DNA from: an uncultured Alphaproteobacteria bacterium
GTDB taxonomy: Bacteria; Pseudomonadota; Alphaproteobacteria; MPNO01; UBA2964
Assembly: GCA_951812775.1 (NCBI GenBank)
Contig: OX638326.1
Coordinates: forward strand, 3,545,391-3,609,390
Direction of reading: 5' to 3'
Length of the DNA stretch: 64,000 bases
The notes under the pieces are model-generated. The model made no database searches. It worked only from the letters and a program-made list of their open reading frames with translations, and was not told the origin of the DNA. Both the position numbers and the translations under genes were made by a program. Of the stretch, positions 1 to 12,253 are shown in pieces; position 1 is the stretch's first letter; each line of letters opens with the position of its first letter.

Positions 1-2
1 AC

Positions 3-371
3 TTTGCAGTGCCGAAGGAAGAGCTTGTTAACAAGACCATCGAGTTGGCTCAGAAACTTATGGCGAAAAGCCCGGCAGTGCTGCGCGCAACCAAACATGC
101 GGTTCGTCAGGTACGCACGATGGACTTTGATCAGTCCTATGATTACCTGGCCGCAAAAGGGCAGGCGATCAAGGTCGGCGATGCGCAGGATTCCTATAAT
201 ACCGGGTTGAGCCAGTTCCTTGATAAGAAGGCCTACAAGCCGACCTTCGAACCTTTTGCGTTAAAGAAAGGGGCAAAGAAAGCGGCAAAGAAAGCGGCCA
301 AGAAGAAAGCCACTAAGAAACAGGCACCGGCTAAGAAGAAGGCAGCTAAGAAAACCGCCCGGCGAAAATAA
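3..371 (+). CDS. Enoyl-CoA hydratase/isomerase family protein, C-terminal part, with lysine/alanine-rich tail (partial)
   Basis: The frame is open from the window edge, so the start lies upstream. The visible 122 residues begin with the C-terminal helical region of a crotonase-fold protein (a run of the type LAQKLMAKSPAVLRATKHAV followed by SYDYLAAKGQA). In this family that region closes the active site and makes trimer contacts. From about residue 85 the protein changes to a tail of KKAAKK and AKK units ending RRK, which is not part of the crotonase fold and resembles bacterial histone-H1-like tails. The stop is TAA, followed by a terminator hairpin. The catalytic Glu residues are outside the window, so hydratase versus isomerase cannot be decided. 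Confidence 0.8.
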   Translation, partial: FAVPKEELVNKTIELAQKLMAKSPAVLRATKHAVRQVRTMDFDQSYDYLAAKGQAIKVGDAQDSYNTGLSQFLDKKAYKPTFEPFALKKGAKKAAKKAAKKKATKKQAPAKKKAAKKTARRK

Positions 372-397
372 CGTCCGGTACTAAGTGAGAATAATGG

Positions 398-425
398 AAC
401 GGCCTCTCAATTGAGGGGCCGTTTT
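398..425 (+). terminator. Intrinsic terminator after the enoyl-CoA hydratase gene
   Basis: A near-perfect hairpin has AACGGCC on the left, GGCCGTT on the right and the self-complementary CTCAATTGAG at the centre. It is followed by a short T run, 26 bp after the stop codon. It separates the chromosomal gene from the RT cassette. Confidence 0.8.
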
Positions 426-535
426 CATTTGCAACTGATGATTCTTGAATTAGAGAAGTAAATCCCTACATCTAGTGTCCACACTTCTCACCGCAGAAGT
501 CTGGGCGCGAGATACAGTGTTTTCGTTGGATTTGA

Positions 536-654
536 GAGTGACAGGCGCCGATCAAGGGGTCGAGTTGCTCGATTTTCCGGTCTCGGTGCAAATGCATGAC
601 CGTTTCGCGGTACGTCAGGAACACTTCCTGAAGTGCATGCGCAGTGGATACAGC
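536..654 (+). repeat. 119-bp direct repeat, copy 1 (upstream of RT)
   Basis: Identical to 911-1029 except for one base (T at 645, C at 1020). It contains three potential hairpins: TCGAG-TTG-CTCGA (560-572), CGGTC...GACCG (580-604 region), and TCAGGAA-CAC-TTCCTGA (615-631). The sequence on both sides of the repeat differs between copies. Copy 1 lies upstream of the putative promoter at 791-819. Confidence 0.95.
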
Positions 655-790
655 TTTGTTCCAGGTCGGACAAATTCGGGGCCTCCGTACCCAATAAACG
701 TTGAGGAGGTTATGAGGCATTTTATCGAGACGGGTCGGGCTGCGGTCGTGAGAATGGCGCGAACATTGCGTGTTGAGTACATAATAATAG

Positions 791-819
791 TTGTATTCGC
801 GGCTCTAGCGTGTTATAAT
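791..819 (+). promoter_or_regulatory. Sigma-70-like promoter for the RT leader and RT gene
   Basis: TTGTAT (791-796), a 17-bp spacer and TATAAT (814-819) form a near-consensus promoter. A start near 826 would give a leader of about 250 nt before the RT start codon. The leader would include repeat copy 2 and all its hairpins. Confidence 0.65.
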
Positions 820-825
820 GTGTTA

Positions 826-1079
826 GGGCTTGGTGGTTTCGAATTTCGATTGAAGGCAAAAGTCACTGTCGAAGTCGAAAGCAGTTCTGTCGCTTCCGAT
901 AATACTTCCGGAGTGACAGGCGCCGATCAAGGGGTCGAGTTGCTCGATTTTCCGGTCTCGGTGCAAATGCATGACCGTTTCGCGGTACGTCAGGAACACT
1001 TCCTGAAGTGCATGCGCAGCGGATACAGCCCAGTTCTCAGTGCAGGGTACATTTTCAATGAGCCTGAGAAAGAGAGAAA
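826..1079 (+). ncRNA. Candidate structured leader RNA of the RT cassette
   Basis: The segment lies between the predicted transcription start and the RT start codon. It holds repeat copy 2 (911-1029) with hairpins at 935-947 and 990-1006. Many RT-based systems (retrons, DRT2, DRT9) carry a non-coding RNA just 5' of the RT gene that serves as template or primer. The position, promoter and structure fit that layout. No retron-type msr/msd with flanking inverted repeats was found, so the RNA type is unknown. Confidence 0.4.
911..1029 (+). repeat. 119-bp direct repeat, copy 2 (in the RT leader)
   Basis: Second copy of the element at 536-654, offset by exactly 375 bp, with a single T/C difference. 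It ends 50 bp before the RT start codon. The one mismatch is not at an adenine, unlike the template/variable repeats of diversity-generating retroelements. Confidence 0.95.
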
Positions 1080-2300
1080 ATGTCCGATGCTAACTACCCA
1101 CGTCCTGTAAAATTAGCGTCAATCGACAAAATCAGATCTGTTTGGTCGGAATCGCGAGACTCTTTGCGCATTTCTTCGACTCCAGGAGTAGATGGTAAAA
1201 CGCTAAAAAATTTCCGGAATCACCTTGATCGTAACCTTCGAAACATTAGCAAGCTGTTGATTTCGGGAGACTACGAATTTAGTAGTCTGAAAGCTATTCC
1301 ACTTGAAAAAGATGACGGCTCTTATCGCATTATTTGCGTTCCGACCGTTGCGGATAAACTTGTACAGCGTTGGTTATGTTGGTGTTTGATTTCGGGTCAT
1401 CATGATAAGCTCGCTGTTCGAAACCAAGTCAGTTACGGTTTTATTCAAGGGAGTCAACGGGGCGTAAAAGCGGCGTTAAAGAAAGCTCGAAATCTGCGGT
1501 CGAGCTATCCCTATGCGTTAAAATCCGACATTCAATCATTCTTTGATAGAATTGACAGAAACCAATTGCGAACTCGTTTGGAGAAACGATTAGGGAATGC
1601 GAGCGTAATTCCCTACCTGTCCGCTGCGATCGGTTGCGAGATCGATCTATCTGAACCAGGGGTGCAATCAGTGACTACAAACCAAGGTATTCAAAAAGGA
1701 ATTGGATTAAGGCAGGGTATGCCAATTTCACCCCTACTATCCAACTTTGTACTCAAAGACTTTGATCGATACTTCGAAAAAGTGGGTGCAAAACTGATCA
1801 GGTATGCGGACGATTTCGTGATATTTTCTAGAACTCCTGAGGAATGCGTAGAGTATTTTCACAAAGCTAAAATGATTTTAGAAAAACTAGGGCATCAAAT
1901 CCCAGAAATCGGTGCCAATAGCAAATCTGCAATTTATGAGCCCCAAGAATCGGTAGAGTTTTTAGGCTGTAGCATCGCCCTAAAAACAAATGAAAGAGAC
2001 TATGAGGTTTTGGTGCCGCAGAAAGCATTCAAATCAGTTAAAACGGAGCTGAAAAAATTTTCTGATTTTGATGAGATGTACAAGACCCACGAGCGGCTTA
2101 CAGAAACAATTGCAAAAATAAATGCTAAAGCCAAAGGAATTTCTAACGCTTATCGTTTTGCGAAGGACCATCAAGCATTGCAAGCTCATATTGCGAACTG
2201 TCAGCAGTCTGCGTTAGCAAATTTGATCAATGGAATTTTCGGTATTGATGCTGTCGATAAACTTAATACCCGCCAAAAATCTTTTCTCGGAATTGAATAG
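1080..2300 (+). CDS. Reverse transcriptase (RNA-directed DNA polymerase), group II/UG-like, stand-alone
   Basis: A 406-residue RT domain protein. Visible motifs in order: PGVDGKT (35-41), a fingers strand with RIICVPTVADKLVQ (83-96), palm motif A SDIQSFFDRID with Asp150, GLRQGMPISPLLSN (209-222), the catalytic YADD (242-245), FLGCSI (294-299), then a helical thumb-like region with KGISNAYRF (352-360). There is no HNH endonuclease or maturase tail and no retron VTG motif. The overall pattern is closest to group II-intron-like and unknown-group (UG/DRT) RTs. The start is ATG with a weak purine-rich site (AAAGAGAG). The gene is clearly AT-richer than its neighbours, which suggests acquisition. 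It ends 11 bp from a convergent chromosomal gene. Function is inferred to be phage defence or a retroelement; the subgroup is unassigned. Confidence 0.9.
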   Translation: MSDANYPRPVKLASIDKIRSVWSESRDSLRISSTPGVDGKTLKNFRNHLDRNLRNISKLLISGDYEFSSLKAIPLEKDDGSYRIICVPTVADKLVQRWLCWCLISGHHDKLAVRNQVSYGFIQGSQRGVKAALKKARNLRSSYPYALKSDIQSFFDRIDRNQLRTRLEKRLGNASVIPYLSAAIGCEIDLSEPGVQSVTTNQGIQKGIGLRQGMPISPLLSNFVLKDFDRYFEKVGAKLIRYADDFVIFSRTPEECVEYFHKAKMILEKLGHQIPEIGANSKSAIYEPQESVEFLGCSIALKTNERDYEVLVPQKAFKSVKTELKKFSDFDEMYKTHERLTETIAKINAKAKGISNAYRFAKDHQALQAHIANCQQSALANLINGIFGIDAVDKLNTRQKSFLGIE

Positions 2301-2311
2301 TAGGGGCCAGT

Positions 2312-4387
2312 TCAACGCCCAACCGTTCTTATATCGACCGCGCAAACGCCCTGGCCTTTAGGCCGGACCATCAGCGGATTGATCTCAATATCGGCAAGCC
2401 AGGTGCGGTGATCGAGGAAGAAATCACTTAGCCCTTTGATGCCAGCGATCAACGCCTCTTTATCGGCAGGCCCACTTCCGCGAAAACCGTCCAGCAATGC
2501 CGAGACGCGAAGGTCGCCCAGCATATTGTGAATATCATCTTCGCTGGCAGGCAGGAGCCGCAATGCGATATCCTTGACCAGTTCGACCATCACGCCACCG
2601 GCACCGACAATCAGCATCGGGCCATATTGAGGGTCATCGCGCGCGCCGACCAGAAGCTCAACGCCGGACACCATTTCCTGTGCGAGGAAACCGTCAATGT
2701 GGGCTTTCGGGTCAATCGCATGAAGTTTTTTCGCCATGCCTTCAGCGGCGGCCACCGCAGCGGTTTCATCGGCAATATTCAGGGCAACACCGCCGATCTC
2801 GGTTTTATGGCCGGCTTCCGGCGAAATAATTTTGAGGGCGGCAGGAAACCCGACAGTGGCTGCCGCGTCACCCGCTTTGTCGCTATTTGCGGCGCGGGCA
2901 GTTTTCGGCGCAGGCAGGCCCCTGGCTGCCAAGGCTGTTTCGAGGGCCTCGCCATCACAATTCGCTTGAGCGCCGGCCGGTGTTGGGATTTCGGGTGTGT
3001 CACGTCCGGCGCGCTCGCCAAAGAACCACAAGGCATTCATGGCCCGCACCCCGATCCGTGTTCCCTGAACAAATGGCATGTTGGTGGCCTCTTGAAACGC
3101 CAGCCCGCCCTCGGGAATTTGGTGTGGCATACGAGCGAAGGAAATCACCGGCTTGTCCGTGAACTCAACCAGCGCCTTGACCTCATCCTGGGCACCGGCA
3201 CTGCGCGCTGACCCTGGCATGTTATTGCACCAGGCAACCATGTCGACGCCGGGATCGGCAGCAAACGCCTTGCATATTTCAGCCGGGGCGGATTTACCCG
3301 AAACACCGACCGGCGCGCCGGTATCGATGGGGTTTCGAATGTGACAATCAGCCGGCACATACGGGCGGATAGCCTCAACTGTTTCCGGTGCCAGATCGGC
3401 AACTGCCGTTTTCTCCTGATCGCAATAATCATGCAGCAGGTCGACCGTGCCGCCGGAGGTCGTCATAAAGGCGACGCGCGGCCCTTTTGGCAGGCGACCC
3501 TGCTGAAAGGGCACAGTCATCTCAACCATCTCTTCCAGCGTTTCACAATTGATGATGCCGTAGCGTTCGCATACGGCTTCATAGGCGGCGTAATCGCCTG
3601 CGACCGCGCCCGAATGGGATTGCGCTGCTTCCCGCGATTTTTGCGAACGACCGGTTTTGATGGCGATGATCGGTTTGCCAGCCTTTAAGGCGCGACCGGC
3701 GGCTTTCATAAATTCGTCGGGTTTGCGAATGCCCTCGATAAACAGGCAAATCTGTTTGGTCTCCGGGTCATCAATGACGAAATTCATATAGTCGGCGAGA
3801 TCAAGGCTCAGCTCATTGCCTGACGAGATCAGATAGGAAAAGCGCAAGCCGCGTTCCTGGCCGGCCTTGGCATAGTAGCTCAACGTGCCGCCGGATTGCG
3901 TGACCAGGGCGACGGAGCCGGGTTCCAGCCCGCTGACATGCTCATGGGGGTAGCAGTAGATGTTCTCGCGAACGCCGACCAGACCCATGCAGTTAGGTCC
4001 GCAGAGCGGCACATTTATTTCAGTCAAAGCCTGCTTGAAGGCTTCACCACGTTTGATCGATTCCTTGCGCCCGCCATCGCCAAAGCCCGAGGCATAGACC
4101 ACTGCGGCCTTCAGACCATTCTCAGCGCCTTGTCTCAGCGCGCCTTCAATGAAGGGCGCGGGAATAATCATCAGGGCCAGATCGGCGGGCTCGGGCAGGG
4201 ACGCCAGATCGGGATAGCAGGGAACGCCGAAGATGTCGTCGCGCTTTGGATTTACCGGAAAGACTTTGCCGCTATAGCCCGACTTTTGCAGGTTGCCGTA
4301 TATATTGCGCGGCCAGTGTGATTTCTCTGTCGCGCCAACAATGGCGATGGTTTCGGCATTAAAAATCGCAGTCGCTGGACTGGTCAT
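2312..4387 (-). CDS. Acyl-CoA synthetase (NDP-forming), acetate-CoA ligase family
   Basis: The enzyme makes acyl-CoA from an acid, CoA and a nucleoside triphosphate through a phospho-histidine, releasing NDP. Three parts are visible: an N-terminal CoA-binding domain (about 8-135, with IAIVGATE and GPNCMG), a succinyl-CoA-ligase-like domain with SHSGAVAGD near 258-265 (the usual phospho-His loop), and a C-terminal ATP-grasp domain (about 475-690, with AALKIISPEAGHKTEIGGV). Its 691 residues are the usual length for the fused form. ATG at 4387 is preferred over an adjacent GTG because GGGAGAG lies just upstream. It is the last gene of a four-gene minus-strand operon, 40 bp after the PLP enzyme gene. 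The substrate acid is unknown. Confidence 0.85.
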   Translation of the reverse strand: MTSPATAIFNAETIAIVGATEKSHWPRNIYGNLQKSGYSGKVFPVNPKRDDIFGVPCYPDLASLPEPADLALMIIPAPFIEGALRQGAENGLKAAVVYASGFGDGGRKESIKRGEAFKQALTEINVPLCGPNCMGLVGVRENIYCYPHEHVSGLEPGSVALVTQSGGTLSYYAKAGQERGLRFSYLISSGNELSLDLADYMNFVIDDPETKQICLFIEGIRKPDEFMKAAGRALKAGKPIIAIKTGRSQKSREAAQSHSGAVAGDYAAYEAVCERYGIINCETLEEMVEMTVPFQQGRLPKGPRVAFMTTSGGTVDLLHDYCDQEKTAVADLAPETVEAIRPYVPADCHIRNPIDTGAPVGVSGKSAPAEICKAFAADPGVDMVAWCNNMPGSARSAGAQDEVKALVEFTDKPVISFARMPHQIPEGGLAFQEATNMPFVQGTRIGVRAMNALWFFGERAGRDTPEIPTPAGAQANCDGEALETALAARGLPAPKTARAANSDKAGDAAATVGFPAALKIISPEAGHKTEIGGVALNIADETAAVAAAEGMAKKLHAIDPKAHIDGFLAQEMVSGVELLVGARDDPQYGPMLIVGAGGVMVELVKDIALRLLPASEDDIHNMLGDLRVSALLDGFRGSGPADKEALIAGIKGLSDFFLDHRTWLADIEINPLMVRPKGQGVCAVDIRTVGR

Positions 4388-4427
4388 CACTCTCTCCCTG
4401 CATATCTTTTTTTGATTTTAGACTTTT

Positions 4428-5519
4428 TTACTGGACCCGGCCACGGGCAGCGATGTTCCACACATCAACAACGTCTTCGCCGCTATAGGCGATGAAGCGG
4501 TCATAGAGATTGACGGTCGTGTCGCAATGGGTCGGGACAAAAGCGACCTTGTCGCCGAGGGCTAACGGGCAGCTGCCATTCTCAAAAACCAGTTCGCTAT
4601 GTTCTTCACCGGCAAATTTGAAGCTCGCGCCCGGCAGGTTGACGGGAACCGGCGGTCCGCCATCCGAGCTTACTGCCTTTAGGCCCATATCGAGGATGCA
4701 GCGCCCGGGTTCTGGCAGTGAGATGACCGAGGCCAGCAGGGTCAGGGATTGCTCAAACGGGATTGAGTTGCCGCCGTCCCACTCGATTTCGCGGTATCGC
4801 GAATCCATAAACAGATAGCCGCCAGGCTGAAGTTCGGTCAGCCCGGCCGCTGCGGCATCAATAACGGACGTGCCGCTGCCGCCACCGGTGAGGTAGTCAA
4901 GCGGCAATCCGGCTTTGCGGATCAACTCGGCCGTGTCGGTCAGCAGACCAACGGCCTTGCGTGCGGCGACATCACGTTCCGCAAACGAGGTCGTCATCTG
5001 TATCGCCCCCTGATAGCCCTGCAGACCCTTAAAATTTAGCCAGTCGGCACTCATGACTTCATAGGCCAGATCCAGGGCGGCATCACCGGGTTGCACGCCG
5101 CAGCGTCCCTGACCGACATCAACTTCAATGACAACATCGGGGCGTACACCACAGGTCTGCGCAACGGCAGCCATCTCGGCAATATTTTCGGAATTGTCGG
5201 CGACCACGGAAATTTTCGCCTTATTGGCGATCCGCATCATGCGGGTGAGCTTTGAGATGCCGATCACCGGCGTGGTGATCAGGATATCCTTTATGTCATG
5301 TGACACCAGAACCTCGGCCTCACCAAGCTTGGCACAGCATACGCCGACAGCCCCGGCATCGATTTGCATCTTGGCGATCTCAGATGATTTATGCGCCTTG
5401 GCATGAGGGCGATAGGCAATGCCAGCCTTCTCCGCCAGCTCCTGCATCCGTTTCATGTTTCGGAGAAAGGCATCTTCTTCGATTAAAAGTACAGGGGTGT
5501 CGAGTTGGTTCAGTTTCAT
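4428..5519 (-). CDS. D-threonine aldolase / D-serine dehydratase-like PLP enzyme (alanine racemase fold)
   Basis: A 363-residue PLP-dependent protein of the fold-type III D-threonine aldolase group, which cleaves or dehydrates beta-hydroxy D-amino acids with a metal ion. RPHAKAHKS at 37-45 holds the expected PLP-binding Lys. LTGGGSGT (about 211-218) fits the phosphate-binding loop, and PTHCDTT near the C-terminus gives the His and Asp pair used for the divalent metal. The start codon overlaps the stop of the upstream amidohydrolase by 4 bp, so the two are translationally coupled. Its place after a gamma-glutamyltransferase and a hydrolase suggests breakdown of a modified amino acid. The exact substrate (D-Thr, 3-hydroxy-Asp or another) is not decided. 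Confidence 0.8.
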   Translation of the reverse strand: MKLNQLDTPVLLIEEDAFLRNMKRMQELAEKAGIAYRPHAKAHKSSEIAKMQIDAGAVGVCCAKLGEAEVLVSHDIKDILITTPVIGISKLTRMMRIANKAKISVVADNSENIAEMAAVAQTCGVRPDVVIEVDVGQGRCGVQPGDAALDLAYEVMSADWLNFKGLQGYQGAIQMTTSFAERDVAARKAVGLLTDTAELIRKAGLPLDYLTGGGSGTSVIDAAAAGLTELQPGGYLFMDSRYREIEWDGGNSIPFEQSLTLLASVISLPEPGRCILDMGLKAVSSDGGPPVPVNLPGASFKFAGEEHSELVFENGSCPLALGDKVAFVPTHCDTTVNLYDRFIAYSGEDVVDVWNIAARGRVQ

Positions 5520-7192
5520 GACGGGTGCTGCTCGACTTCGCCGGTGTCGTGGACGATCTTTCCGCCGACGATGGTCATTTCTGACGTGATGTCCTTGATG
5601 TCATTTTCGGGACAGGTCAACGGGTCCTTATCGGTAATAATTACGTCGGCCAGCCTGCCCGGTTCGAGTGTGCCTTTGATGTCCTCTTCGCCAGTAAGAT
5701 AGGCGCCATTGCGGGTCGCACAGGTCAGTGCCTGTTCCCGGGTCAATGCTTGCTCCGGTGCTATCCGGTCATCACTGAACATGTTGTAGCGGGCGATCGT
5801 TTGCCACACGGGATACCACAATGTCGTGGGTACATTATCGGTTGCCAGCGAGATCGGGATACCCGCCTCGACGACACTTTTAAGCGGCGCGATCTCGTTC
5901 TCCCGTGCTTCGCCGATCTCATCGCGGACGATGTGGCCGTACTTGTAGATATAGCGGTTGGTGTGGGAGGTCATCGCCAGCTTGAGGGTTGCCATGGTTT
6001 CAATCTGGTATTCCGTTGCGCGGTCTAAATGGCCCATTACCCAGCGTTTTTCCGCCAACGGTATGACCTTGTCGACCGCTTCAAAATGTTCCAGAAAGTC
6101 CATCCAGATTGCGTTTGCGCGGATATTGTTGCGCGCCGCCGCCGTCAGATAGTCGACTATTCCGTTCTCCGGGATACCACTGTCGTAATTGAAGCCTGAC
6201 CAGCCCGTATAGGGCGCTGATCGGTTGCGAACCAGATTGTCCGGCGTGATGCCAAAGTCCGCAAATATGCCGGCGACGGCCAGCCAGTGATCGCCATCAC
6301 CGCGCACGCCGCCGATCCAGTCTGACCATTCGGCAAAGGTGGATTCATAGCCGTCTTTATTGGCGAAATGCCATGACGGGCTATAGACCAGAGTGGCTCG
6401 AACCGACGCTGCGCCCTCTGCATTAACGGCACGATAGGCGTCGATCAATTCCTGGGCACAGCCATGTTCCTCATAGACGCTGGTGGTGCCGCCGGCATTG
6501 TAAATCGCCATCGATCGTTTGATCCCGGCGACCCGGTCATCATGACCAAAGCGCGGCATGGATCGAAAATAGGCAAGCTCGGCAATCGGTACAAAGGTGT
6601 ACTCGTGAATGATGCCGTCGAGGGCACCGTTGCCATCCGTTTCGAATTTAATGATCTCGGGCAAATCCCCGGGGTCTGAGTCCAGTCCGGCTTCTTTTAG
6701 CGCCAGTGAGTTTGCGATAGAGGTCAGCGGCTGAATATGCCGCCAATACCCCCAGATCGGTCTGATATATACCGGATTTTCCGGCGACACCCGGTCAAGC
6801 TCTTCGCGGGTTGGCCAGCGCTTCTCGGCGAGATTATCCGGAACGTCGAAATAATAGGGCGGCTCGCCAATCGGCATGGTGACGATCCAGTCGCCGGGAT
6901 CCGCCTTGGCGACCAAGGATGCAATACGCTCAAGAACATCATCGATGGATTTGCAGCCCGATAATGTCGGAAAGATCGATTTGAGGCCTTCGCGATCCAT
7001 ATGGGCATGGCCGTCAATCATGCCGGGCATGACCGTGCGGCCTCCGGCATCGATTATCGGATGATCCGCGTGATCCCTGGAAAGGGTCTCGGCGTCACCA
7101 ACCGCGGCGATCCGTTCTCCGTCGATGACAAGGGCATCATGGAGTGAAAACGCATCGTCACAGGTAACGACCTTGGCGTTACGGATTAACAT
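5516..7192 (-). CDS. Amidohydrolase family protein (YtcJ-like, amidohydrolase 3)
   Basis: A 558-residue metal-dependent hydrolase of the amidohydrolase superfamily. The N-terminal strand domain has GGRTVMPGMIDGHAHMD (about 51-67), which carries the HxH metal site. Later metal-site elements are VMGHLDRATEYQ and SLATDNVPTT, and the C-terminus returns to the small beta domain (GTLEPGRLADVIITD). YtcJ-type proteins hydrolyse amide or related bonds of small molecules in the cytoplasm. It lies 6 bp after the gamma-glutamyltransferase gene and overlaps the next gene by 4 bp, so it belongs to the same operon. The substrate is unknown. Confidence 0.8.
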   Translation of the reverse strand: MLIRNAKVVTCDDAFSLHDALVIDGERIAAVGDAETLSRDHADHPIIDAGGRTVMPGMIDGHAHMDREGLKSIFPTLSGCKSIDDVLERIASLVAKADPGDWIVTMPIGEPPYYFDVPDNLAEKRWPTREELDRVSPENPVYIRPIWGYWRHIQPLTSIANSLALKEAGLDSDPGDLPEIIKFETDGNGALDGIIHEYTFVPIAELAYFRSMPRFGHDDRVAGIKRSMAIYNAGGTTSVYEEHGCAQELIDAYRAVNAEGAASVRATLVYSPSWHFANKDGYESTFAEWSDWIGGVRGDGDHWLAVAGIFADFGITPDNLVRNRSAPYTGWSGFNYDSGIPENGIVDYLTAAARNNIRANAIWMDFLEHFEAVDKVIPLAEKRWVMGHLDRATEYQIETMATLKLAMTSHTNRYIYKYGHIVRDEIGEARENEIAPLKSVVEAGIPISLATDNVPTTLWYPVWQTIARYNMFSDDRIAPEQALTREQALTCATRNGAYLTGEEDIKGTLEPGRLADVIITDKDPLTCPENDIKDITSEMTIVGGKIVHDTGEVEQHPS

Positions 7193-7198
7193 GCCGCG

Positions 7199-8785
7199 CT
7201 ACCAGCCAGCCGCATAGGCCTCGCGCCGATGATCGGCGGCACCGACCAAGACGCCGTTATCGAGAATTTCGAGACATTTGGAAGATCCAAAATAGGAGGC
7301 CCCGGATGCCCTGCCGATCTCGAAGCCGCGGGCGGTCAACGCATTGCCAACCTCGTCCGGGAACTCGTCATCAATCAGAATATTGGCCGTGCCATCGATC
7401 GACCAGCGCGGTGCCTCAATGGCAGCTGAAAGCTCCATGCCGCGTTCGATCATATTGGTGAGCATCTGGACATTGGAGATCGTCTGCGCCGGTCCACCCG
7501 GTGTCGTCAGCTGGTATTTCACCTTGCCGTTCTTGAAGGCCATCACCGGGTTCAGCGTATGGCTCGGCTTCTTGCCCGGTGCAACGACGTTACAATGCTC
7601 AGGATCGGTGACAAAGCCGGTCATGCGATTATTGAGCAGGATACCGGTGCCGGGATCGAGGAAGGCGGAGCCAAAGACGTGGAACACACTTTGCACGACC
7701 GAGATTGCGTTGCCGTCACCATCCGCCAAAGTAATGCAGCTGGTCCCGCCGACTCCGGGCCGCTGATGCTGGCCGGGGGCGGCGGCCCGGACGGCGGCCT
7801 GCAGCTTGCTGGTCATTTGTCCGCCCAGCAGCTCGTCAATCGGGGCGGGGTGTACGGCAGGATCACAGATATAGGGGATGCCTTCATCAAACGCTGCCCG
7901 CGCTGCCGCCATCAGATAGGCCAACCGGTCCTCATCGGGGCCGGTAAAGGCCTCCTGCGGCAGGCCCTTGATGGCGTTGAGCTGCATCAGCATCAGCACG
8001 CCGTAGGAGTTGGGTGGCATGACATGGACATCAAGGTTGCGGTAATCGGTATTGATGGTATCGACCCATTCCGGCTCATAGCCTTCAAAGTCTGCGGCGG
8101 AGAGCAAGCCGCCATTCGCCTGGCAATAGTCTCCGAGTGTTTTTGCGATGCGACCTTCGTAATATACGTCGCTGCCATTTTCCGCGATGTCACGAATGGT
8201 TTCGGCCAGCGCCGGCTGTTTGACGATATCGCCCGGGTTCATCGGGACTCCACCCGGCATATAAAGGGCCGCACAGCCGGGGTCCTTGCCGACATGATCA
8301 AACAGCCGCAGTGCGCTGGTCAGGATGCGCGACACCGGATGGCCGTTCCCGGCGATATCAATGGCGTCGGCGAACAGGTCTTTCCAAGGCATTTTGCCAT
8401 GCTTTCGATGCAGTCTTTCCCAGCCGCGTACGATGCCGGGAACCGATGCAGCGTCGGGACCATGGACGGTCATGCCATCCTTGAAATATTCCGGTGTGGC
8501 ACCGGCCGGGGCATAGCCGCTGGCATTTAGCCCCTGGGTCTTCTTGGTCGCCGCGTCGTGGTGAATGATAAACGCATCACCGCCAAAGGACGTTGCATGC
8601 GGCAACACCGTACAAAGTACGGCAGAGGTCGAGATCATGGCATCGACGACCGAGCCGCCGCGTTCCAGCACGCGCAATCCCGATGTTGAAGCGAGTGAAT
8701 GGCCAGAAACAACCATCCCCCTGGTTCCGTAAACCGGTGAGCGGGGCAGTTTTACCCCAGCAAATTCATCGACCTGTCCGGCCAT
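7199..8785 (-). CDS. Gamma-glutamyltransferase family protein
   Basis: A 528-residue N-terminal-nucleophile enzyme. The family precursor cuts itself before a Thr that becomes the catalytic residue; here GVGGTSCITLADGDGNAIS places it at about Thr348. Other family elements include TSFGGDAF near 65-72 and TTPGGPAQTISNVQ in the small subunit. There is no signal peptide, so it is predicted to be cytoplasmic, unlike periplasmic Ggt. The canonical TTH after the cut site is TSC here, so acceptor use may differ from glutathione-specific enzymes. It is the first gene of the minus-strand operon, and the start is supported by the AGGAG element in the leader (8788-8796 region). It may remove a gamma-glutamyl group from a substrate passed to the downstream amidohydrolase. 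Confidence 0.85.
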   Translation of the reverse strand: MAGQVDEFAGVKLPRSPVYGTRGMVVSGHSLASTSGLRVLERGGSVVDAMISTSAVLCTVLPHATSFGGDAFIIHHDAATKKTQGLNASGYAPAGATPEYFKDGMTVHGPDAASVPGIVRGWERLHRKHGKMPWKDLFADAIDIAGNGHPVSRILTSALRLFDHVGKDPGCAALYMPGGVPMNPGDIVKQPALAETIRDIAENGSDVYYEGRIAKTLGDYCQANGGLLSAADFEGYEPEWVDTINTDYRNLDVHVMPPNSYGVLMLMQLNAIKGLPQEAFTGPDEDRLAYLMAAARAAFDEGIPYICDPAVHPAPIDELLGGQMTSKLQAAVRAAAPGQHQRPGVGGTSCITLADGDGNAISVVQSVFHVFGSAFLDPGTGILLNNRMTGFVTDPEHCNVVAPGKKPSHTLNPVMAFKNGKVKYQLTTPGGPAQTISNVQMLTNMIERGMELSAAIEAPRWSIDGTANILIDDEFPDEVGNALTARGFEIGRASGASYFGSSKCLEILDNGVLVGAADHRREAYAAGW

Positions 8786-8924
8786 GAAACTCTCCTAAAT
8801 TCAAGAAATGATGCTTTCCCCCATCATGGCCGATGGGGACTTCTTGTCAATGTGGAGCGTATTTAATTGGGTAGGAACAAAAAGCGAATTCACAGTAAAA
8901 AAGGTAGTTGAGAATGCCTCTAAA

Positions 8925-9104
8925 TTATTGACTTTTAACAAGAAACATGGTAATTGCTGACGAAGTCGTTAAAGCGCTTGCTTCAGCAATTAGCTTCAGT
9001 CCAAGCGCTTTAACGACTGCGCCTCCGTGCTTTAAAAAATGGGCGACTTTTGCCCGAAAATTCCGGAAAAATTTCTTACAAAAAAAACGGCTGTTCAGCT
9101 TCAT
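8925..9104 (-). CDS. Small basic ORF with strong RBS, unknown function
   Basis: A 59-residue frame beginning MKLNSRFFCKKFF. It is preceded by AAGGAG at ideal spacing and by a near-consensus promoter at 9151-9179. The N-terminal third is strongly basic and the rest mildly hydrophobic. No family is recognised. The two competing inverted repeats (8951-9018) lie inside its 3' half. It could be a true small protein, a leader peptide whose translation sets the hairpin choice, or a chance frame. Transcription would run toward the gamma-glutamyltransferase operon, whose start is 140 bp further on. Confidence 0.35.
   Translation of the reverse strand: MKLNSRFFCKKFFRNFRAKVAHFLKHGGAVVKALGLKLIAEASALTTSSAITMFLVKSQ
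8951..9018 (-). promoter_or_regulatory. Two mutually exclusive hairpins between the zinc operon and the gamma-glutamyltransferase operon
   Basis: A perfect 17-bp inverted repeat pairs 8964-8980 (AGTCGTTAAAGCGCTTG) with 9002-9018. A second perfect 10-bp inverted repeat pairs 8951-8960 (TAATTGCTGA) with 8983-8992. The loop of each contains an arm of the other, so only one can fold at a time. This is the geometry of an attenuator or switch. Neither stem is followed by a clear T tract, so it is not a plain terminator. Confidence 0.55.
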
Positions 9105-9129
9105 TTGGGCGCTCCTTTTTGATTTAATA

Positions 9130-9150
9130 AAGGGTGTAATTATCACCCTT
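9130..9150 (-). promoter_or_regulatory. Inverted repeat directly downstream of the small-ORF promoter (operator candidate)
   Basis: AAGGGTG and CACCCTT form a 7-bp inverted repeat around a 7-bp centre. On the minus strand it begins at the base after the -10 box, so it covers the predicted transcription start and could bind a repressor. It could also fold as a 5'-end mRNA hairpin. Confidence 0.4.
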
Positions 9151-9179
9151 ATTTTATCGTGTTTTTCGTAAAACATCAA
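9151..9179 (-). promoter_or_regulatory. Sigma-70-like promoter, minus strand
   Basis: On the minus strand TTGATG (9179-9174), a 17-bp spacer and TAAAAT (9156-9151) make a near-consensus promoter. It points at the 59-codon ORF and then the gamma-glutamyltransferase operon. Confidence 0.55.
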
Positions 9180-9248
9180 TAGAAACAAAGCATTATGAGT
9201 TACAAGACACTCGGAGTCTTTGTTCAGGCTACTAGGTTACGGTAGCTG

Positions 9249-9998
9249 TCAGCGGTTTAGTGTTGTAATCCGGGTGATGATTGTGACCGCCGCGAATGCA
9301 AGGACCAGCGTTGGTCCGGCCGGTAAATCTGCGAGGGCAGACAGGATTATGCCCGCGAGCACGGCAACAGCGCTTAGAACAAAGGCAACACCGACGGGTT
9401 TTTTTCCCATTCTGTTCACGGCAAGCGCCGGCAGGATCAGGCTGGCAAAGACCACGTAAACGCCGACCAGCTGTACCGACGCTGTCACGACGATGGCAAA
9501 AAGCACAAAGAATCCGGTACCTCCCCGCATCACCGGAAAAGCAAACCAGAGAACGAGGCCGACACCATAGATCGGCGCGAAGGCAAGAATGCGATCCCAG
9601 GACACAAACAATATCTGGCCGGAAAGAATATGCTGAACTTCCTCGCCGCCATGCGGGTGGTTGGCCAGCGCAAGGAGCACCGCGGCGGCGGCAAGGATGA
9701 AGCTGCTGCCAATAACGGCTTCCTGTTCCTGGGGCGCTTTCTTCTCAACCCAACGAAAAAAGATTGCTGCGGCGAGTGCCGCCGTCACCGCAGCAATTTG
9801 GGTCATACCCCACGAGGGGTCATGCGCCCAAAGATTAACAAGCACGACACACAGACCGGCGATCTGGGCAATGGCCAGGTCAATAAAGATGATCCCCCGT
9901 CGCAGGACTTCAATCCCCAGCGGCACATGGAGCATGGCGACCATCAACCCCGCGATCATTGCGGGCAGGACAATTTCAAGGCCTTCAAGGCCGGCCAT
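9249..9998 (-). CDS. znuB: Zinc ABC transporter permease ZnuB
   Basis: A 249-residue ABC-3 family inner-membrane permease with about seven to eight hydrophobic helices. Family elements include LRRGIIFIDLAIAQIAGLC near the N-terminus (contact with the ATPase) and VGVYVVFASLILPALAVNRMG later. It imports zinc passed on by ZnuA. ATG at 9998 is chosen because GGAGAAGG lies upstream and a longer frame would need a TTG. It overlaps the znuA end by 14 bp and is the last gene of the operon. No znuC ATPase gene is in the operon, so the energy-coupling subunit must come from elsewhere. Confidence 0.88.
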   Translation of the reverse strand: MAGLEGLEIVLPAMIAGLMVAMLHVPLGIEVLRRGIIFIDLAIAQIAGLCVVLVNLWAHDPSWGMTQIAAVTAALAAAIFFRWVEKKAPQEQEAVIGSSFILAAAAVLLALANHPHGGEEVQHILSGQILFVSWDRILAFAPIYGVGLVLWFAFPVMRGGTGFFVLFAIVVTASVQLVGVYVVFASLILPALAVNRMGKKPVGVAFVLSAVAVLAGIILSALADLPAGPTLVLAFAAVTIITRITTLNR

Positions 9999-10899
9999 TG
10001 GCCTTCTCCAGCTGTGCAAGGATATCGTCGAAGAGTTTCTTTAAGGCGCCTGGTTTGGCGTTACGCGAGACTGTAAATGGCAACACCAGCGCCGGAATAT
10101 TGGTCTTGTTCGCCAGCCAGTTTGAGGGGTCAGACTGGTCAAATGGCGTTCGCAAAATCGCTTTGGCTTTTGCTGCCGACACGGTTTTCAGAAGCCTATT
10201 GAGATGCGATACGGTCGGTGGAATACCGGGTTTGGCCTCAAGCGACCCTACTTCTTTCAGACCCAGCCAACCGATCAGATAGCTCCAGGATTTGTGATGC
10301 ACGACGACTGGCATGTTCTTTAGCTTTGCCGCGCGTATATTCCATTTTTTCATATGCATTTCCCAGCGGTTTTCAAAACTCTTTAAGTTCCGGCTGTAGA
10401 GTGCACTATTCTGCGAATCTATCACTGATAGCCGTTTCGAGAGTTCCCGCGCGAGAAGGGTCAGGTTTCTCGGATCAAGATGAACATGCGGATTCCCCTC
10501 CGGGTGGATATCACCCAGACTGCGATCAATGACGGTCGGAATTTCCCGGACGGGCACATGTTGGGCTGCCATAAGGTGTCCTGGTTTTCCCGGTCGAACA
10601 TTTGATCTGGCACCCCGTTGCATCAACAGCGGCAACCAGCCGACTTCAAGTCCGGCGCCTGCACAGATAACCAAATCGGCACGACGAATTTTTGCAATCA
10701 GGCTCGGTCGTGCCCGAACATGATGCGCGTCCTGTTTCTCATGGGTTGCAGAATAGGTAGAGACCTTGTCACCGCCAATCTCCTGCGCCAAAGCCGCCCA
10801 TTCGGGTTCGCAGGCGAAGACCCGAACGTCGGCCGTGGCTGGGGCGGGCAATGCCCACCCCAGCATCAGAATTGAGACGAAGCTTAATTTTTTTATCAT
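9985..10899 (-). CDS. znuA: Zinc-binding periplasmic protein ZnuA (cluster A-1 solute-binding protein)
   Basis: About 304 residues. The N-terminal signal peptide (IKKLSFVSILMLGWALPAPATA) directs export to the periplasm, where the protein captures zinc for ZnuB. Family elements are RVFACEPEWAALAQEIGG, the ligand region ending DAHHVRARPSLI, NPHVHLDPRN, VVVHHKSWSYLIGWLGLKEVG, and the C-terminal IPALVLPF. The long His-rich loop of E. coli ZnuA is absent. ATG at 10899 has AAGGAG just upstream and follows the porin stop by 10 bp, so it is co-transcribed with the porin. Confidence 0.88.
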   Translation of the reverse strand: MIKKLSFVSILMLGWALPAPATADVRVFACEPEWAALAQEIGGDKVSTYSATHEKQDAHHVRARPSLIAKIRRADLVICAGAGLEVGWLPLLMQRGARSNVRPGKPGHLMAAQHVPVREIPTVIDRSLGDIHPEGNPHVHLDPRNLTLLARELSKRLSVIDSQNSALYSRNLKSFENRWEMHMKKWNIRAAKLKNMPVVVHHKSWSYLIGWLGLKEVGSLEAKPGIPPTVSHLNRLLKTVSAAKAKAILRTPFDQSDPSNWLANKTNIPALVLPFTVSRNAKPGALKKLFDDILAQLEKANGRP

Positions 10900-10909
10900 G
10901 GCTCCTTCC

Positions 10910-12253
10910 TCAGAACGCATGCGCGGCATGAGCGCCAATACTCATGACATATTGCAGGATGAACTGATTGTCGTCCCGACCATCGGATAGTTCTTCCCGG
11001 TTATATTGGACCCGAATTCGACCGAATTCACTATTTGTCCAATCAGCCATGACCGACATCGTATAGGGGTCGTGCCCTGCCGAGTCGAGCGCGCTTTCCG
11101 CCAACCCTGCCGGGGTATCCGCGGCCAGCAGCTGTGAGTACCGGGCACCAACACGCCAGGCCGGTGCAAACTTATAAACGGCCTGCGCATACCAACCTTG
11201 CGAACCGTCATCGAAATTGACAGCGCCCGTTCCGGCGCCGGTGTCGTTGTAGGTACCGTCTTCACTTCTATGGAAGAACTCTGTCTGGAAAATCAGCTCC
11301 TGATTCCTGGCATTTCCGGTAGGTGCCCAGCTATAGCGAAGATCGGCAGCATAGAGGTTTGATTTGCCGACAAAGGTCACGGCGCCTTCGTTGGTGGCGC
11401 GGCTGTTCACATCACTATGAAGCGTGTACGCCCCTAACCGCCATGACTGGTTGTCGCCGATATCGCCACCAACTCGGGCATAGGCGGACCAGGCACCAAA
11501 CCCGCTGACGGAATCGCCGGCCGGGAAATCATCCCCCCGGAAGATGCCGCCACCGAATTCGATGAACATATCGGCAGGTACAACATAGGAAACCTCAATG
11601 CCATCGTCGTTAAACGACTTGTTGAGGTAAACACGATAGGGCAGCGGCCTGTCTGCGAAGTCATCGCCATGAGCATGATGCTCGTTGAGATAACCAAGGG
11701 TCCAGAAGGCACGACCCGCTTTCAGCCGGAGCCCATCTGGTAAGCCTGCATCGGGCAGTGTCTGAATATACGCTTCTTCCAGCTCGACCTTGTCCTCACC
11801 CTCTTCGCGAACAATGGCGACGGTGGAACTGGCATAGAACTTGTCATCGACATTTGCGGAGAAGTTGATCTCGGATTCATCGATGGCGAGGCCCTCTCTT
11901 CCGCGTTCACCTTCTTCGCCGACGCCAAATCCGGCAATTTCCGAACCGTCTTGCGAGAAGCTACCGGCGCGGCCATTCAGGATTATGCCAAGTGACGGGT
12001 TAAAGGAATTGTCTTTAATCGCGCGTCCGCCGCTTGCCGGGGTTACCTTCTTGCCCGCCACGGCCTTCTTCTGTTCGAGAGATTTGATTTTGTTCTCAAG
12101 CGTTGCAATTCGGCCTTCATACGCCTTTTTGAGCGTTTTAATTTCGCTGAGAATCCTACTCAGCTCTTGTTTATCTGCCGCATACAGAGGTGTAGACGCC
12201 AGAAGTACCGGAACAGCAATTGCTGCCGCGGCACGCATGTACCGTAAAGTCAT
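10910..12253 (-). CDS. Zinc-operon outer-membrane porin-like beta-barrel
   Basis: A 447-residue exported protein. It has a signal peptide (about 1-25, ending PLYAA), a short coiled coil (about 27-62, ELSRIL...LENKIKSLEQK), and then alternating amphipathic strands rich in aromatic and acidic residues that end in a terminal Phe (AHAAHAF), typical of an outer-membrane barrel. There is no TonB box or plug, so it is a porin-type channel rather than a TonB receptor. It sits between a Zur-box promoter and znuA with short gaps, which implies a role in outer-membrane zinc entry. TAAGGA precedes the ATG. Channel specificity is inferred from context only. Confidence 0.75.
   Translation of the reverse strand: MTLRYMRAAAAIAVPVLLASTPLYAADKQELSRILSEIKTLKKAYEGRIATLENKIKSLEQKKAVAGKKVTPASGGRAIKDNSFNPSLGIILNGRAGSFSQDGSEIAGFGVGEEGERGREGLAIDESEINFSANVDDKFYASSTVAIVREEGEDKVELEEAYIQTLPDAGLPDGLRLKAGRAFWTLGYLNEHHAHGDDFADRPLPYRVYLNKSFNDDGIEVSYVVPADMFIEFGGGIFRGDDFPAGDSVSGFGAWSAYARVGGDIGDNQSWRLGAYTLHSDVNSRATNEGAVTFVGKSNLYAADLRYSWAPTGNARNQELIFQTEFFHRSEDGTYNDTGAGTGAVNFDDGSQGWYAQAVYKFAPAWRVGARYSQLLAADTPAGLAESALDSAGHDPYTMSVMADWTNSEFGRIRVQYNREELSDGRDDNQFILQYVMSIGAHAAHAF

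Follow-up and report, generated by a model that had tools for sequence, protein, structure and literature searches.

Stand-alone bacterial reverse transcriptases preceded by repeat-bounded, stop-free units: a candidate system for RNA-templated gene assembly

Our analysis of the window, a stretch of 64,000 nt from an uncultured alphaproteobacterial genome, revealed a stand-alone reverse transcriptase (RT) gene with two near-identical direct repeats, DR1 and DR2, just upstream of it, spaced by a period of 375 nt (3 x 125). We estimate a probability of roughly two in three that the RT and this unit form one system, in which DR1, the middle and DR2 would act as an R-U-R template that is copied into DNA with an endless ORF, the product of which would be toxic to membranes. 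This reading is based upon the anatomy of the window and upon a rule that holds across the RT family: the repeat period differs from lineage to lineage, is always a multiple of three and encloses a frame that is free of stops.

The positions of the features are listed in Table 1. The chromosomal copy of the open frame closes after DR2, and the hydrophobic segment within it has a mean Kyte-Doolittle value of 2.22 over 19 residues, compared to 0.57-0.64 in the other frames. The preliminary description of this DNA had reported the sigma-70-like promoter, which outscored 200 of 200 dinucleotide shuffles of the scanned stretch, but had missed the repeat pair, and the promoter in fact lies within the repeat-bounded unit; a further promoter-like site, which precedes DR1, has a weak score in the window. 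A hairpin leader of about 250 nt had also been proposed. Strong structure was indeed found, as 536-1079 folds at -211.8 kcal/mol (z -5.3, with none of 100 shuffles equal), but a simple non-coding RNA does not describe a stretch that holds DR2 and part of an open frame. Similarly, a 5' RNA template of the DRT2 type was the right kind of idea, although the template that we propose is the stop-free unit from ~536 rather than a plain leader from 826.

The cassette is an acquired insertion. Four genomes of the same genus (G001, G002, G003 and G007) lack it, matching the window up to 354-425 and resuming from 2314-2331 with short gaps between, which places the empty site at ~425/2322. The cassette is also AT-richer than its surroundings, as had been described (GC 0.39-0.47 vs 0.55-0.61). 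At its upstream edge, 396-432 gave a weak match to the Rfam family ctRNA_p42d (26 bits vs a gathering score of 50), and this stretch is apparently the terminator hairpin of the upstream gene.

Table 1. Positions of the features of the RT cassette in the window
Feature	Position	Strand	Details
Inserted cassette, approximate limits	426..2321	+	Empty site in four same-genus genomes; GC dip
Open frame through DR1, middle and DR2	454..1110	+	211 codons from first possible start at 475
DR1, direct repeat copy 1, proposed 5' 'R'	536..661	+	126 nt, 97% identical to DR2
Middle of unit (proposed 'U')	662..910	+	Stop-free in unit frame; holds SD-start, transmembrane segment and promoter
Shine-Dalgarno (SD)-like AGGAGG (704-709) and ATG (712-714)	704..714	+	In stop-free frame; 2-nt spacing, which is short
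Stretch coding hydrophobic, transmembrane-like segment of unit frame	781..837	+	Kyte-Doolittle
Sigma-70-like promoter TTGTAT-N17-TATAAT	791..819	+	791-796/814-819; p=0.005
DR2, direct repeat copy 2, proposed 3' 'R'	911..1036	+	126 nt, 97% identical to DR1
Reverse transcriptase, RT and thumb, YADD	1080..2300	+	406 aa; Pfam RVT_1, AlphaFold2, fold comparison

The RT itself was as first described, a protein with the catalytic motif YADD (Pfam RVT_1, E 2e-24) in which a Pfam search found no maturase (GIIM), HNH or further domain. AlphaFold2, run on an input alignment from which rows from plasmid records were left out, predicted a complete RT and thumb fold with a mean pLDDT of 92.5, and the closest solved folds were the group II-type RTs G2L4 and GsI-IIC (Z 29-30). 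However, a group II intron, the alternative named at that stage, was rejected: GIIM is absent, no intron RNA was matched in 1-12000 of the window (Rfam, E<=1) and TIGR04416 scores 176 bits against a cut-off of 300. A likeness to retrons had also been suggested and was not sustained, as the retron RT models reported by the profile search score far below their cut-offs (St85, 81 bits vs 235; Ec67, 31 bits vs 450) and Rfam gave no msr/msd match. The best named PADLOC class was UG17/DRT10, at 133 bits.

Relatives of this RT were found by two routes. A tblastn search of plasmids recovered RTs of Acinetobacter and Acetobacter with 30-33% identity, and a scan of genomes and viral contigs based on a five-row alignment found further relatives where a single-sequence search of genome and viral contigs had found nothing. 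The layout, though with unrelated repeat sequences, is shared by relatives from Proteobacteria of the alpha, beta and gamma classes, from plasmids and from viral contigs. A repeat search of every locus identified 34 loci, the window included, in which a repeat pair precedes the RT; they fall into 23 RT clusters at 60% identity. The repeats are 75-166 nt long (54 nt in one case at a contig edge) and end shortly before the RT; the four Acinetobacter loci inspected (L044-L047, of which L044 and L045 are near-copies) carry repeats of 126-129 nt, spaced by 378-399 nt, directly upstream of it. Within a locus the copies are 93-100% identical, while among loci they have diverged, so that the two copies appear to evolve in concert. 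Most of the mismatches between copies fall within the initial 40% of the repeat, and the remainder is nearly always identical.

An RT phylogeny, a check proposed earlier, placed the protein outside the groups sampled: the family forms a single clade (SH-aLRT 99) apart from the sampled group II RTs, the three DGR-like outgroup loci (L099-L101) and two UG17/DRT10 RTs. Repeat pairs are present on most branches of this clade, whereas the repeat search found none in the relatives L043, L050 and L114. L043, on an Acetobacter pasteurianus plasmid, has beside its RT a very long microsatellite-like run (5850-6450) that translates as DRTGQDRTGQ and so on. Solo copies of the repeat occur in L064-L066, L078, L079 and L089, and more weakly in L053 and L060; the flanks of the L079 copy resemble the outer flanks of the L075 repeats, as after recombination between repeats. 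In L086 and L087 the RTs are 68% identical in amino acids, while the repeats are 95% and the middles 91% identical. From this comparison, RTs and units seem to be exchanged, and the two can differ in history.

The central regularity of the family is the reading frame. Periods in the 23 RT clusters were 291, 336, 339, 342, 345, 363, 366, 369, 375, 378, 381, 384, 387, 399, 402, 408, 420, 423 and 441 nt, and a viral locus fetched after the others as a small hold-out of one (L143) added a stop-free period of 453. All 20 distinct periods (291-453 nt) are therefore multiples of three, which would occur by chance with a probability of ~3e-10 if they were independent. When the period is closed upon itself, each of the 24 cluster representatives has one sense frame without a stop, compared to 3.0 predicted by shuffles and 5 on the antisense strand; both statistics treat RT clusters as independent. 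The exception seen among individual loci was L057, with one stop in the unit frame. In the DGR-like outgroup loci, the repeat spacings of 557, 566 and 556 are not multiples of three. As the period differs among lineages, many changes must each have preserved the frame. In the chromosome this frame ends soon after DR2, and usually also soon before DR1, so that the joining of units would be what makes the closed frame meaningful.

The content of the unit is also shared. In nearly all loci the stop-free frame codes for a hydrophobic, transmembrane-like segment (only weak in L080). Of 26 loci, 17 have an in-frame SD-start near the beginning of the middle, compared to 11 for the other two frames together, and a sigma-70-like promoter is enriched further along the middle (Fisher p 9e-6 for the 26 loci), although in some loci these signals fall short of significance. 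A second such site directly precedes DR1 in some loci (Fisher p 0.02 over the family). Since the inner promoter lies beyond the SD-start, it is directed into DR2 and the RT in the chromosome and could reach the SD-start only where units are joined. Codon-position bias between related units is weak, which indicates that conservation bears more on the frame and its hydrophobicity than on the exact protein, and Pfam gave no family above its cut-off for the unit ORFs. In two subclades, the repeat RNA showed no more than modest covariation.

A period of 3n with a stop-free frame is the pattern that one would predict for an RT that jumps from repeat to repeat while copying a terminally redundant R-U-R RNA. 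A transcript that starts at DR1 or close to it and extends through DR2 would have redundant ends of this kind. The RT would copy DR2 and the middle up to DR1, leaving a cDNA end complementary to the repeat, and this end could anneal to DR2 of its own or another RNA, where synthesis would resume to give a (DR-middle)n cDNA or a circle. In the double-stranded product, the promoter in each middle would come to lie ahead of the next unit's SD-ATG, and the stop-free period would become an endless ORF for a protein of repeated transmembrane and soluble segments. Such a product would probably be membrane-toxic and may halt growth when phage triggers the system, as in abortive defence. The toxicity and the anti-phage role are suggested by analogy with DRT2 and by gene context: the neighbouring genes include restriction-modification and DarT-like ones, and L098, a contig of phage type, carries genes for terminase and DNA methylase. 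In the surroundings of 14 relatives, of which ten were scanned, no conserved partner gene appeared among the large ORFs. If the RT does copy the unit into DNA, a new membrane-protein gene would be made on demand, probably as a means of stopping viruses.

The same observations could be read without joined units. The strongest competitor, which we regard as unlikely, is that the chromosomal ORF is itself the gene and codes for a small membrane protein that is duplicated internally, while the RT only copies one repeat onto the other or does something unrelated. In favour of this, the chromosomal frame has no stop across the two repeats, and an in-frame internal duplication would likewise give multiples of three. 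However, the repeats are nearly identical in DNA at every locus though their sequences differ among loci; constraint at the protein level is weak; a stop often closes the frame shortly before DR1, which often leaves the first repeat with no start of its own; and the order of inner promoter and SD-start fits joined units. Less probable still is a switch at the DNA level: the repeats would recombine, the unit would be cut out, and the RT or the ORF would be switched on or off as a result. The existence of solo-repeat alleles speaks for such a switch, but it needs neither a 3n period nor a stop-free frame, no recombinase gene linked to the cassette was found in the window, and chance recombination also takes place between repeats of 75-166 nt, so that the solo copies may be products of decay. 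We consider it very improbable that the family represents diversity-generating retroelements (DGRs), or degenerate group II introns or retrons, with the repeats as TR/VR or intron remains: the RT is group II-like and two similar repeats lie near it, but the mismatches between repeat copies show no adenine bias in the family-wide spectrum, motif 4 reads RQGMPISP, the RT lies outside the branch that holds the DGR-like loci, and the intron domain, RNA and profile score are wanting as described above.

Part of the repeat also occurs elsewhere in the genome. A 30-nt piece identical to 583-612 of the window lies in an mscS-like gene (C1:3036867-3036896), flanked by two copies of a 36-nt target duplication (C1:3036831-3036932, corresponding to L004:1465-1566), and a stop breaks the mscS-like frame. 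A 36-nt duplication with a 30-nt insert matches a repeat and a spacer of type II-C in length, and judged by size the insertion looks like an off-target CRISPR spacer integration of this type. Five isolated 37-nt duplications with inserts of 33-36 nt, the repeat size of type II-B, were found at C1:3094452, 1670650, 2350818, 2444365 and 2588717 (L202, L221, L240, L245 and L252) in a scan that covered 2.0 Mb of 4.15 Mb, partly masked. Four of the five inserts match elsewhere in the chromosome, including rpoC-like and msrA-like genes, which suggests that self-derived off-target spacer integration is common in this genome and leaves the 30-nt piece a weak candidate for a captured cDNA. The genome's second RT gene is split by one of these insertions, of 37+36 nt, near C1:2444365 (L002/L245). 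The genome also carries a type II-C-like CRISPR remnant (L040:8913-13528) with cas1, a cas9 that seems to be frameshifted and one repeat-like sequence of 36 nt, with no array nearby; a II-B system with a Csx12-type Cas9, cas1, cas2, cas4 and 50-odd repeats (L039); and a third array, with cas1 (L038).

Among known systems, DRT2 is the nearest in design. To our knowledge, it was the first known gene built from non-coding RNA. The 'neo' system of DRT2 has a 120-nt unit joined by ACA-directed jumping and an RT of 425 aa (PMC12039810, PMC11100668). The system proposed here would share a similar RT size (406 aa), a template RNA upstream, a stop-free 3n unit, and a promoter and ORF meant to meet only in repeated units. 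In contrast, its RT belongs to another clade (41 bits with NCBIfam Drt2 against a cut-off of 390, with better matches to group II-like models; Z 20.7 with the DRT2 structure vs 30.5 with G2L4), its unit is 291-453 nt long, its joining would rely on repeats of 75-166 nt rather than on ACA trinucleotides, and its predicted product is hydrophobic. The separate clade and the different jump element would thus be new relative to gene assembly of the DRT2 type, and in the portion of the DRT literature that was covered, all of it open access, no RT was found with long direct repeats that bound a coding unit.

UG17/DRT10, an RT system with SLATT and an ncRNA that repeats 9-nt motifs (PMC12632851), resembles the present family as its best PADLOC class, in the ncRNA-templated repeat DNA that we infer and in the involvement of a membrane protein. 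This identity was nevertheless rejected, as the reference UG17 RTs, located by their adjoining SLATT_5, fall on another branch, outside the family clade (SH-aLRT 99), and score 439-460 bits with PADLOC, compared to 128-152 for the window RT family; no SLATT_5 match was found in the window's genome. G2L4 and the RTs of group II introns, the closest in fold, have a known ability to switch templates or join ends, although the present family has no GIIM/D/En domain and no intron RNA and is separate from the sampled group II RTs. LTR retroelements have R-U-R genome RNAs and leave solo LTRs, and they offer an analogy only: a terminally redundant template that permits strand transfer, repeats kept alike and solo-repeat derivatives. 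They differ in that here the RT gene lies outside the repeats and no integrase, gag or unit mobility was seen.

Taken together, the sequence comparisons lean, somewhat less firmly than for the template reading itself, towards a separate RT clade that writes genes through the LTR-like terminal redundancy of a structured RNA, yielding concatemeric or circular DNA for an endless membrane-toxic protein, and towards RNA-templated gene assembly having arisen more than once, by more than one jumping mechanism. If this is true, the building of genes from RNA is no oddity of DRT2, but extends to a second RT clade that is widespread in Proteobacteria, plasmids and viral contigs, with a much longer, repeat-bounded unit whose reading frame is kept in every lineage examined. 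The long repeats would offer a simple mechanism of strand transfer and a possible DNA-assembly tool, and would tie bacterial defence RTs to template switching of the LTR type.
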